Origin: a virus
Direction: 5' to 3' (one strand)
Length of the DNA stretch: 23,381 nucleotides
IMG/VR virus record: IMGVR_UViG_3300012354_000015
Span: 1-23,381 of that record
This document shows, piece after piece, positions 12,540 through 14,803 of this stretch; position 1 is the first letter of the stretch; each line of letters starts with the position of its first letter. The notes beneath the pieces are model-generated. The model did no database searches, was not told the origin of the DNA, and worked only from the letters and a program-made list of their open reading frames with translations. The position numbers and the translations under genes are program-made.

Positions 12540-13091
12540 ATGAAAAAACTCAATCTAGCGGGTCAAACTCTATCCTCTGGTGTTATTGTCACAACATCAG
12601 CGGGCGTTTCCATTCATGGTAAAACTCAATGGAACTGCGTGTGCCCGTGCGGGAAAGGCTTTATCGCCCTCGGAAGTGAACTCCGCAACAACCACACACG
12701 AAGCTGTGGTTGTTATTCTCGCAGTGGAACCTTCGTCACGAAACATGGTCATCGCAGCGTCACAAAAGGAAGCAATAAGCAATCCCCGATATACACGCTT
12801 TGGATAAACATCATAGCTCGATGCAGCAATCCGTTATACCCGCACTGGGCGGATTACGGTGGTCGCGGCATTACGTTCAATTCCGAATGGAACAATTTCA
12901 AAAAATTCTTAAACGATATCGAGAATTCTATCGGGCCAAAACCGCCCCTAGTTAAAGGCTATGAGCGGTATTGGTCGATAGATAGAATCAACAACGACGG
13001 TAATTACGAATTAGGAAATGTTCGTTGGGCTAATCCAATCGAACAAGCTAACAATCGTCGTCACAGACGTTGGCACAAGCGTCCTTCCTAA
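12540..13091 (+). CDS. HNH homing endonuclease, encoded on the opposite strand
   Basis: A 183-residue protein on the plus strand, the only convincing gene there. The N-terminal region has WNCVCPCGKGFIALGSEL and RSCGC, a zinc-binding module. The middle has PIYTLWINIIARCSNP and DYGGRGITFNSEWNNFKKF, and the C-terminal region has SIDRINNDGNYELGNVRWA, the hallmark of a phage HNH family (DRI.NDGNY..GN.RWA) often linked to AP2 DNA-binding domains. It is wedged between the major capsid gene, towards which it converges (15 bases apart), and the decoration gene, from which it diverges. It has its own strong promoter and no visible terminator. Free-standing homing is the most likely role. Confidence 0.9.
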   Translation: MKKLNLAGQTLSSGVIVTTSAGVSIHGKTQWNCVCPCGKGFIALGSELRNNHTRSCGCYSRSGTFVTKHGHRSVTKGSNKQSPIYTLWINIIARCSNPLYPHWADYGGRGITFNSEWNNFKKFLNDIENSIGPKPPLVKGYERYWSIDRINNDGNYELGNVRWANPIEQANNRRHRRWHKRPS

Positions 13092-13106: not shown

Positions 13107-13874
13107 TCAGGAAATCGCGCTAGCCGCGTCGATTTGACGCATACGAATTGTGGTATCCGGGCCGAGGCTGGTCGTGAAATGAACTCTGTAAGAAGTCCAT
13201 CCAGGGATCAGACCTTCGGGGTCAGCAACAGTCGGTTCAGCATTCTGAACGATGTTGCACTTAATGTTGCGCCAATCTCCATCACCGAACGACGTATCGT
13301 TCTGTGCGCCAAGATTGATAGCGAACACACCGTCACGCCCGAAGATGTAAGTCCGGAGTGCGGTCAACCCGGTCACACCCTTATAGTTCGAGGTGCGAGT
13401 AACCAGATTGGTCTGGAAGAAGTGAACGCCAGACGACGGCAATTCGATTACTTCCTCAAGATCAACACTAACCAATTCGTCCATCTTCGCCTGGCCCACA
13501 GGGGTGTGCTTCAGGATATCGATGGGAGAATCGTTGCTGTTGTCGGCAAGAACATCGCCAAGAGCGAACGGGTGGATCACACCAACGAACGACTTGGTAG
13601 CTTCGTCAAAAGGACGAACACTACGACCCGCCAGCGACTGAACGCTGTTACGAATCTGGGACAAGCTCAGAGCCGTAAAAGCCGAAGTGCTGGTGGCCGC
13701 CAATTGAACCAGCACGCTGGAATCAATACTGGAAGCTCCATCAGCCGTTGCACGCACAAGTGCGCTCAACGATTCGCCAAGACGATACGACATTTCTTTC
13801 GCCACATTCTCGACGGTGTTGTCGATGGCGGTTGCCAGAGACAGGGACGAGAAGTTTGCGTAATCGGCATATTC
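13107..13874 (-). CDS. Major capsid protein, exon 3 (residues 89-343)
   Basis: This is the main part of the shell protein. It reads EYADYANFSSLSLATAIDNT, then VAKEMSYRLGESLSALVRAT, RSVRPFDEATKSFVGVIHPF, FGRDGVFAINLG and GDGDWRNIK, ending TTIRMRQIDAASAIS and TGA. The GxYADYxNxS and GVIHPF/DxxxDxxN patterns fit HK97-fold capsid proteins of environmental phages. A TTG at 13877 can mimic a start, but there is no ribosome site and the first codons belong to the intron end. Joining to exon 2 after GGT and starting at GAA (13874) gives ATIG-EYADY in frame. With exons 1 and 2 the protein is 343 residues, normal for the family. Position after portal and scaffold supports the call. Confidence 0.9.
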   Translation of the reverse strand, partial: EYADYANFSSLSLATAIDNTVENVAKEMSYRLGESLSALVRATADGASSIDSSVLVQLAATSTSAFTALSLSQIRNSVQSLAGRSVRPFDEATKSFVGVIHPFALGDVLADNSNDSPIDILKHTPVGQAKMDELVSVDLEEVIELPSSGVHFFQTNLVTRTSNYKGVTGLTALRTYIFGRDGVFAINLGAQNDTSFGDGDWRNIKCNIVQNAEPTVADPEGLIPGWTSYRVHFTTSLGPDTTIRMRQIDAASAIS

Positions 13875-14494
13875 CAAATGTGTTTAGGGCTGCAACGTTC
13901 CCGTTGCACCACTCTCACGGTCGCCCGTGAGTTCGGGCTGTATCTTTACGGAATCTTGTTCCGCAATCTGCATATCAGTCTCTACGGTTGGCCCACGTTT
14001 ATTAAGGGTGTGCATTTTTTGATAAAGAGTCTCTCTGAGTTCCGGACATCTCTGTTCGCTCAGACGAAAAAACTCTACCAGCACTTTTGCCTGTTCTCGT
14101 TTAATAATCAGATATGGCATAAGTCCGAGGAGAAATATCTCCTTTGACTTCGCATTACCCGAAAAATACCAAGAATACGCAACGGAATGCTTTTCAGACT
14201 TCGGCTTGTGAACGTGTATGTTCCCGCCGAAATGCTCGACTAACCATTTCATCAGACGCTTGTCCGTGTTCTTAACATGGATGCGACCATAATAGTTATC
14301 GTACGACCCTCTATCTGACCGAGAGATAATCAAACAGCCTTCGCCGTCGATAATCCCCGCAAGATAGATAACGTGATTTTTCTTCATTTGACCCATCCTT
14401 CCGGATTATTAAGCAGGGTTTAGCCTTACCACGGTATTGTCTCATTTCTGAGAGTTTCACCGTTATAGCAGATTTTGCATCGGCAAATATGTTT
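13875..14494 (-). other. Group I intron (620 nt) within the major capsid gene
   Basis: Splice sites are set by pairing. Exon AUCGGU (14500-14495) pairs with GCCGAU (14484-14479) as P1 with U-G at the 5' site; exon 3 GAAUAU pairs with AUAUUU (14490-14485) as P10; the intron ends in G (13875). The core is visible: P3 AAUCUGC (14474-14468) with GCAGAUU (13971-13965); P4 ACGGU (14463-14459) with ACCGU (14435-14431); P5 UCUC/GAGA; P8 GCGGAA/UUCCGU (13964-13948); probable P7 GACUG (13980-13976) with CAGCC (13940-13936), which contains one A-C mismatch. Two 3' hairpins of 7 bp have GNRA loops (13931-13914, GCGA; 13908-13891, GGAA). The segment ACGGUGAAACUCUC...GACAAUACCGUG matches the usual group I P4-P5 pattern. 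Splicing restores the capsid frame. Confidence 0.9.
13884..14387 (-). CDS. Intron-encoded LAGLIDADG homing endonuclease
   Basis: About 167 residues from the ATG at 14387, which has GGAAGG nine bases upstream; an ATG at 14396 directly abuts that site and is less likely. The motif LAGIIDGEG at residues 9-17 is the catalytic and dimer helix of the family. RIHVKNTDKRLMKWLVEHFGG, then AYSWYFSGNAKSKEIFLL and LMPYLIIKREQAKVLVEF follow the usual order. Only one motif is present, so it should act as a homodimer. It would cut intronless capsid alleles near the exon 2-exon 3 junction. The last 30 or so codons coincide with P7, P3, P8 and P9 of the ribozyme, so the C-terminal residues (ELTGDRESGATGTLQP) are probably dictated by RNA folding. 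Confidence 0.9.
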   Translation of the reverse strand: MKKNHVIYLAGIIDGEGCLIISRSDRGSYDNYYGRIHVKNTDKRLMKWLVEHFGGNIHVHKPKSEKHSVAYSWYFSGNAKSKEIFLLGLMPYLIIKREQAKVLVEFFRLSEQRCPELRETLYQKMHTLNKRGPTVETDMQIAEQDSVKIQPELTGDRESGATGTLQP

Positions 14495-14597
14495 ACCGAT
14501 GGTCGCAGTCGTGGTCAGCACGGACACCGACAAAGAGGAACCAACAGTTCCTTCAGTAGTCTGGTTAGTGTTCGCAGCCAACGGAACGTACATGAAC
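14495..14597 (-). CDS. Major capsid protein, exon 2 (residues 54-88)
   Basis: These 103 bases encode FMYVPLAANTNQTTEGTVGS and on to VLTTTATIG, the strongly conserved N-arm and E-loop-like region of this capsid family (..PLAANT...TEGTVGSSL...). The reading frame has no start of its own and closes at TGG TAA at 14430-14428 inside the intron. Its first base (G, 14597) completes a split codon AT|G with exon 1, and its last codon is GGT before the group I 5' splice site. Its opening bases pair with the 45-nt element (P10), and its closing bases pair with the 620-nt intron (P1), so this short exon serves both interruptions. Confidence 0.85.
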
Positions 14598-14642
14598 CAA
14601 TAACGTTCTCGACTTTGACTTACGAGACATTCATGTTATAGA
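14598..14642 (-). other. 45-nt interruption with group I splice-site anatomy but no core
   Basis: These bases separate two conserved parts of the capsid gene and contain an in-frame TAA (14638-14636). Upstream exon UACGAGAU (14650-14643) pairs with GUCUCGUA (14628-14621) as an 8-bp P1 whose last pair is U-G at the 5' boundary. Immediately 5' of that strand, CAUGAAU (14635-14629) pairs with the first seven bases of exon 2, GUUCAUG, as a P10. The element ends in G (14598). This is the same geometry as the neighbouring intron, and removal gives in-frame SGNQYE-M-FMYVPL. Only 23 bases lie between P1 and the 3' end, far too few for P3-P8. A competing hairpin TCTCG/CGAGA (14627-14607) is also possible. 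Excision is inferred, not shown. Confidence 0.6.
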
Positions 14643-14803
14643 ATCTCGTATTGATTACCGCTCTTCATGGGCAGATCAAGACGCTCTGCGCAACGCACGA
14701 AGGGGGTGTTAGCTTTCAGGTTTTCACGAAACCGTTTGTCGTAGTACTTTACAGTAGACTGCGGCAGGTTTGAAAGCTGGTTACCGCTAGGAGAAAAACT
14801 CAT
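14643..14803 (-). CDS. Major capsid protein, exon 1 (residues 1-53)
   Basis: The ATG at 14803 has TAAGG nine bases upstream. It encodes MSFSPSGNQLSNLPQSTVKY, then YDKRFRENLKANTPFVRCAE and RLDLPMKSGNQYE. The STVKYYDKRFxENLKxNTPF and LPMxSGNQ patterns are the usual N-terminus of this capsid family. Without removal of the 45-nt element the ribosome would stop after 55 codons at TAA 14638. The exon is taken to end at T14643, within codon 54, on the basis of the P1 pairing described for that element. The gene follows the scaffold-like gene after 17 bases, as expected for head operons. Confidence 0.85.

Follow-up and report, generated by a model that had tools for sequence, protein, structure and literature searches.

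The DNA considered here is a stretch of 23,381 nucleotides (nt), IMG/VR virus record IMGVR_UViG_3300012354_000015 (the window below), which carries on its minus strand, from 14803 to 13107, a major capsid gene whose coding pieces of 161, 103 and 768 nt are parted by gaps of 45 and 620 nt. Read together, the three pieces give 343 residues and a stop without any internal stop codon, and a spliced aligner arrived at the same gaps, placing them after residue 53 (45 nt, phase 2) and after residue 88 (620 nt, phase 0). The joined reading and the aligner agree on the one continuous 343-residue capsid protein proposed in an earlier, sequence-only reading of this DNA. That reading also held that simple gene calling reports just the last piece, as is indeed the case, with mechanical open reading frame (ORF) calling returning only 13107..13877, 256 amino acids (aa) from a TTG start.

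The spliced protein matches uninterrupted homologues end to end, and these contain the sequence of both exon 1 and exon 2. In Tunturiibacter phage Tunturi_3, a single uninterrupted ORF of 343 aa, annotated as 'major head protein', encodes a homologue with 82% identity, and an uninterrupted relative with 95% identity (L004) matches phrog_1357, 'major head protein', with an E value of 2e-15. Compared with the N4-gp56 major capsid model (NCBIfam TIGR04387), the same relative scores 47 bits (E 2e-12, residues 12-195) where the cut-off is 60, and is related to the N4-gp56 family without being a member by that cut-off; the window protein is accordingly described as N4-gp56-like. A separate intact capsid gene, which would have spoken against a gene in pieces, was not found in the window's own record when searched with exon 3. 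An AlphaFold model of the capsid protein built from 26 intact sequences reached a mean predicted local distance difference test score (pLDDT) of 30 and was not used.

Two interruptions of the capsid gene

While the earlier reading was right in seeing one capsid gene in three pieces, it left the nature of the interruptions unnamed, namely a group I intron of 620 nt and a coreless element of 45 nt, here called a mini-intron (mini). The mini forms a P1 of 8 bp, with a U.G pair at the 5' splice site, and a P10 of 8 bp, and none of 2000 shuffles did as well (0/2000). Within its guide stretch, the 5' half provides the P10 strand and the 3' half the P1 strand GUCUCGUA. What follows P1 is a tail of 23 nt, and the mini thus has no catalytic core of its own; at 45 nt in total it is not an autonomous group I intron and was filed as a coreless derivative.

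The 620-nt interruption, judged by its guides and core pairings, is an ordinary group I intron. It is preceded by a U and ends in a G, forms a P1 of 7 bp with U.G and a P10 of 7 bp (p < 1/2000 shuffles), and makes 33 of 33 pairs of a consensus derived from 21 related, ORF-trimmed introns (P3, P4, P5, P8 and P9), in which 22 of the 33 pairs show compensatory change. The homing endonuclease ORF within it is assigned to LAGLIDADG by Pfam and labelled 'HNH endonuclease' by PHROGs (phrog_5046), a label that looks wrong.

Table 1 Features of the interrupted capsid gene, in positions of the window
Feature	Position	Strand	Basis
Capsid exon 1, 161 nt, residues 1-53 and two bases of codon 54	14643..14803	-	joined reading, spliced aligner, intact homologues
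Mini P1 5' strand, end of exon 1, UACGAGAU	14643..14650	-	guide test
Coreless mini-intron, 45 nt, preceded by U (14643), final G (14598)	14598..14642	-	joined reading, spliced aligner, guide test
Mini P10 strand, pairs with first 8 nt of exon 2 (14590-14597)	14629..14636	-	guide test
Mini P1 3' strand, GUCUCGUA, U.G at splice site	14621..14628	-	guide test
Mini tail, 23 nt, up to terminal G	14598..14620	-	tail analysis
Capsid exon 2, 103 nt	14495..14597	-	joined reading, spliced aligner
Group I intron, 620 nt, proposed catalyst of both removals	13875..14494	-	P1/P10 guide, consensus core fold, P7 motif
P3 5' strand (AAUCUGC) of group I core	14468..14474	-	core alignment
LAGLIDADG homing endonuclease ORF within group I intron, 170 aa	13884..14396	-	PF00961 (LAGLIDADG_1), 24.6 bits, cut-off 23.1
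P7 5' strand (GACUG)	13976..13980	-	core alignment
P3 3' strand (GCAGAUU)	13965..13971	-	core alignment
P7 3' strand (CAGCC; one A.C mismatch with GACUG)	13936..13940	-	P7 motif
Capsid exon 3, 768 nt including stop	13107..13874	-	ORF list, joined reading, spliced aligner

Mini-introns and their group I neighbours in related phages

Related loci were collected by protein and pattern scans of viral contigs and one scan of genome contigs; with the Tunturi_3 record and the window added, 114 loci were parsed, 111 of them usable. Loci with the capsid gene cut at a contig edge (L012, L021, L073), pattern matches within unrelated DNA (L135, L142, L145), an in-frame insertion of 21 nt that 7 loci carry at residue 254, a codon indel, and repeat contigs (most of L083-L134; L136, L139, L141, L144; nearly all of L164-L295) were left out, and the short L138 was left off the tree. 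Each protein scan contributed the best 80 among 163-207 relatives, and one pattern scan was aimed at genes with an insert at residue 53, so that the share of mini-bearing loci is not a frequency. Except for Tunturi_3 and one contig of a metagenome-assembled genome (MAG), all sequences are viral contigs from metagenomes. The genome-contig scan gave one relative, with an uninterrupted capsid gene (L296, PSRA01000113.1), on a contig that was binned as a Bacteroidetes MAG and is likely a phage contig wrongly binned.

The capsid gene is uninterrupted in 66 of the 111 loci, while 23 carry full-size introns only, 22 carry full-size introns together with minis, and none carries a mini only. The full introns (n=66) measure 196-1202 nt and the minis (n=30) 32-98 nt, with no size between 98 and 196 nt. 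Since the minis include identical or near-identical copies (L023/L024, L043/L044, L143/L147), 23 are distinct. They occupy nine sites, at nt 53, 60, 66, 93, 156, 161, 900, 911 and 940 of the coding sequence, and occur in all three codon phases.

Guides like those of the window mini recur throughout. All 20 distinct minis tested have a P1 of 6-8 bp including U.G and a P10 of 4-8 bp (shuffle p <= 0.0085 for each, mostly < 0.0005), and three further distinct minis have a P1 of 7-10 bp and a P10 of 5-6 bp. A U precedes and a G ends each of the 30 minis, both features for which the aligner gave a bonus, and across the nine sites the guide varies so as to match the exons of its own site. These P1 and P10 pairings presumably act in splicing. 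The tails of minis at residue 53, the window's own included, have in common AAGU..AAGUCG beyond the sequence dictated by the exons. By eye, the tail (CGAUUGCG) of the minis at residue 20 in L030 and L043 can form 8 bp with the exon upstream of P1 (CGCAAUCG); the pairing occurs in these two minis, whose loops differ, and may bring the 3' splice site close.

If retained, a mini introduces an in-frame stop in 29 of 30 cases and a frameshift in the remaining one (32 nt), while the spliced frames of mini-bearing loci contain no internal stops. The ratio of nonsynonymous to synonymous substitution rates (dN/dS) in loci with minis at residue 52/53 is 0.07 for codons 1-53 and 0.10 for codons 55-88, beside 0.09 and 0.11 for the corresponding regions of intron-free loci, indicating that exons 1 and 2 of mini-bearing loci are under purifying selection. 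Either the minis are removed, then, or these phages could not make capsids, and sequence gives good support to the view that minis are substrates for group I-type splicing.

In 30 of 30 cases the next intron after a mini (its partner) is a full group I intron, 20-215 exon nt downstream, and the group I P7 3' motif is found in every partner. The arrangements seen (m, mini; F, full intron) are mF, FmF, mFF, mFmF, mFFFmF and FmFmF; minis are never adjacent to one another, and no gene ends with one. A second subtype among the introns comprises ten ORF-less introns of 196-241 nt, with compensatory change at 31 of 43 pairs. A later pattern scan at residue 22 gave five contigs, two already in the set and three new, and in each of the new ones a mini is followed by a full intron, one of these partners being truncated at the edge of its contig. 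Residues 88-91 are a hot spot for full introns (19 of 111 loci), where a scan with flanks that match 80 of the 111 known genes found no short insert.

On the capsid tree, the minis need 13 changes, at least 10 of them forced by well-supported branches. Across tree-aware independent pairs, full introns accompany minis in a mean of 7.8 of 10 and the opposite in 0 (median p 0.008). When minis were placed at random, taking the most generous configuration for each of the nine sites, the probability of lying within 215 nt upstream of a full intron was 3e-4. For adjacency, the probability was 4e-7 over 15 configurations, which share ancestry.

As aligned, the last base of some full introns with a group I P7 motif is A (AAAGTA or AAATA) instead of G (L042/L043/L044 and L062 at site 91; L058/L063/L105/L149 at site 31; L137 and L298 at site 189), which reflects either a boundary error or a real variant of the 3' end. 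The single capsid gene of L137 (1-3518) is interrupted six times, by four full introns and by two minis of 46 and 37 nt; no match came from a permissive Rfam search with this locus. Portal-like and terminase-like genes are found near the capsid gene. When 22 neighbouring proteins (9 of Tunturi_3, 13 of the window) were compared with the 114 parsed loci, no minis were found in these genes, and the 10 joined breaks held inserts of about 198-480 nt. Among them, the portal homologues of L065, L101, L140, L143 and L157-L160 carry, near residues 57 and 82, inserts of about 198-228 nt, which is the length of ORF-less group I introns, and lack minis. Just downstream of the window's capsid gene, on the opposite strand, lies a free-standing HNH endonuclease-like ORF (phrog_374; 12540-13091, +), while in Tunturi_3 the next gene begins 73 nt past the capsid gene with no HNH-like ORF between.

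A proposed shared catalyst and its alternatives

The preferred explanation, to which a probability of about 0.64 is given, is that the minis are non-autonomous group I introns, mostly relics of full ones, and that the core of the intron that follows cuts them out prior to its own removal. With very nearly the same confidence, they can be regarded as a natural and recurrent class, splice guides of a few dozen nucleotides in phage capsid genes for whose excision the following intron would provide the ribozyme, a single catalytic RNA thereby serving two introns. Co-occurrence and order point to the neighbour's core as the catalyst of mini removal, and it would act in cis, before leaving the transcript.

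The capsid pre-mRNA would thus lose two introns by group I chemistry through a single ribozyme, the mini lacking P3-P9 but retaining its terminal G and an internal guide sequence that forms P1 with exon 1 and P10 with exon 2. Lying about 100 nt further down the same RNA, the core of the following intron would dock the P1 of the mini, and a guanosine-driven cut would be made after the U of exon 1. The terminal G of the mini would then enter the G site of the core, exon 1 being joined to the exon 2 held by P10, and the same core would finally use the P1 and P10 of its own intron to remove itself and link exon 2 with exon 3. As the catalyst leaves the transcript on self-excision, the mini would have to lie 5' of the ribozyme, matching the observed order; order would matter because an upstream ribozyme is already gone from the nascent transcript. 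The tails, 15-80 nt long, link P1 to the 3' splice site, and the shortest may correspond to the span from the docked P1 to the G site. Exon skipping, in which the mini's guide would be used with the partner's 3' site, was considered and rejected, as in 30 of 30 minis P10 forms 4-8 bp with the near exon and just 0-2 bp with the exon beyond the partner; with the near exon so selected, the expected product is exon 1 - exon 2 - exon 3.

As to origin, the loss of the core from a full intron would have been tolerated where a neighbour was able to take over. At five of the nine mini sites, other genomes have a full intron at exactly the same nucleotide (binomial 1e-7). Such coincidence is expected if minis descend from full introns by deletion of the core, as most of them probably do. 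A preference for hot spots could also contribute to this coincidence.

Several points weigh against this explanation. The evidence consists of DNA alone, nearly all of it metagenome contigs, and the minis are not independent of one another owing to shared ancestry. In the placement null, lying upstream of any full intron has a probability of 0.049, so that the directional argument rests mainly on adjacency. The tails pair with their own partners no better than with those of other loci (mean fraction better 0.55), and no docking element is thereby identified. When the window mini was folded with 14 nt of exon 1, P1 was absent from the minimum-energy fold, but it appeared once 20 nt of exon were included at both ends; in minis folded alone P1 occurs in most, not all, minimum-energy structures. 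The P7 of the window intron, the pseudoknotted helix expected to hold the G-binding pair, was read by eye and has an A.C mismatch beside its terminal G-C pair, as does that of L279. Finally, the 620-nt intron gave no match to Rfam RF00028 at the gathering score; a homologous, ORF-less intron of 254 nt from the same intron set (L043) matches at 55 bits, and the miss in the window thus reflects a limit of sensitivity.

Coreless minis might instead be removed wholly in trans, by another phage intron such as one in the portal gene, by a free excised intron or by a host RNA. On this unlikely but most serious alternative, adjacency would come about as homing of the neighbour co-converts the flanking exon and carries the minis along. 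Near-identical capsid genes do differ by entire sets (L011 has none and L014 FmF; L003 has none and L040 mFmF), so that minis and full introns probably move together, and some relatives have inserts of about 200 nt in their portal genes. Yet co-conversion should also leave minis 3' of full introns as well as lone minis, none of which is seen, and 13 of the 30 partners are of ORF-less size (< 300 nt). A set that moves as a unit and a dependence on the neighbour could also both hold together. That the minis are dead relics or assembly artefacts in defective capsid genes is far less probable: while nearly all sequences are metagenomic viral contigs and the window itself is a virus record, minis appear on 22 contigs at nine sites with distinct sequences, the guides are intact in 23 of 23 distinct minis, exons 1 and 2 are under purifying selection with stop-free spliced frames, and no second capsid copy was found in the records searched, which include three mini-bearing ones.

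Two further explanations do without a ribozyme, and both are highly improbable. The 45-nt gap was at first put down to translational bypassing, in which the ribosome would pass over the unspliced insert as it does in T4 gene 60 or at the mitochondrial byps; the short length of the gap, its junction hairpin and the stop codon just after the hairpin resemble gene 60. Bypassing was rejected on the mixed codon phases of the minis, on the mismatch between the triplet before the resumed frame in the window (TGG) and the GAG or ATT at the end of exon 1, and on the guides to both exons; P10 with the next exon, the terminal G and the obligatory group I neighbour would all be left unexplained. Excision by a protein enzyme, for example a splicing endonuclease with a ligase, would fit inserts of 30-100 nt with a junction hairpin, which resemble archaeal bulge-helix-bulge introns. 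However, the sole cultured host of this capsid family is a bacterium, Tunturiibacter, and to our knowledge bacteria have no such enzyme. Moreover, the U.G-tipped P1 and contiguous P10 are marks of group I, and such an enzyme would not explain the dependence on a group I neighbour.

Relation to known introns and ribozymes

The usual view of group I introns is that each has a catalyst of its own. The 620-nt intron resembles canonical phage group I introns (RF00028) with homing endonuclease genes in its U, G, P1, P10, P3-P9 core, in which P7 has one mismatch, and LAGLIDADG ORF, whereas the 45-nt mini has the guide and terminal G only. Natural split, trans-spliced group I introns exist in organelles, and there too the core and the splice sites do not lie on one contiguous intron; they are, however, one intron in two parts, whereas here a whole core would serve a second, separate intron. 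Group III introns, like other degenerate derivatives of group II, have shrunk to splice signals and are presumably served by a core encoded elsewhere, but they belong to the group II lineage and to plastids, while the minis are of group I and in phages. T4 gene 60 and the byps share with the minis a gap of 27-55 nt in coding sequence with a hairpin, yet they are translational and codon-based, unlike the minis with their mixed phases and guides to both exons.

The capsid gene of this soil phage, with its pairing of mini and full intron repeated at many positions in relatives, suggests that one ribozyme removes both. If the core of a neighbour does serve coreless introns, a class of phage introns escapes both gene callers and intron finders. 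Such service would also offer a group I parallel to the core loss and shared RNA catalyst that have been proposed to explain how the spliceosome arose. The step from self-splicing to a shared catalyst is usually debated with group II introns and the spliceosome in mind, and would gain an extant group I counterpart amenable to test-tube experiments.

No natural coreless group I intron was found in the open-access literature as far as it was accessible, subscription papers being outside the scope and absence therefore unproven. The 'mini-intron' of PMC3562157 is a cited Neurospora construct, and a term search of the main text of the Tunturi virus paper (PMC11924767) did not return the word 'intron'. 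The nearest precedents found are engineered. Trans-excision ribozymes excise up to 28 nt in vitro, and spliceozymes excise introns of 100 nt in vitro and in E. coli (PMC4094466). In these trans-excision-splicing ribozymes and spliceozymes (PMC4094466, PMC6155759), as in the process proposed here, a group I core cuts out a short, foreign internal segment and joins its flanks. They are, however, designed and hold the guide within the ribozyme, while here the guide lies within the mini and the proposed ribozyme is a natural neighbouring intron, so that the capsid genes may provide natural minimal substrates and natural relatives of the engineered spliceozymes.
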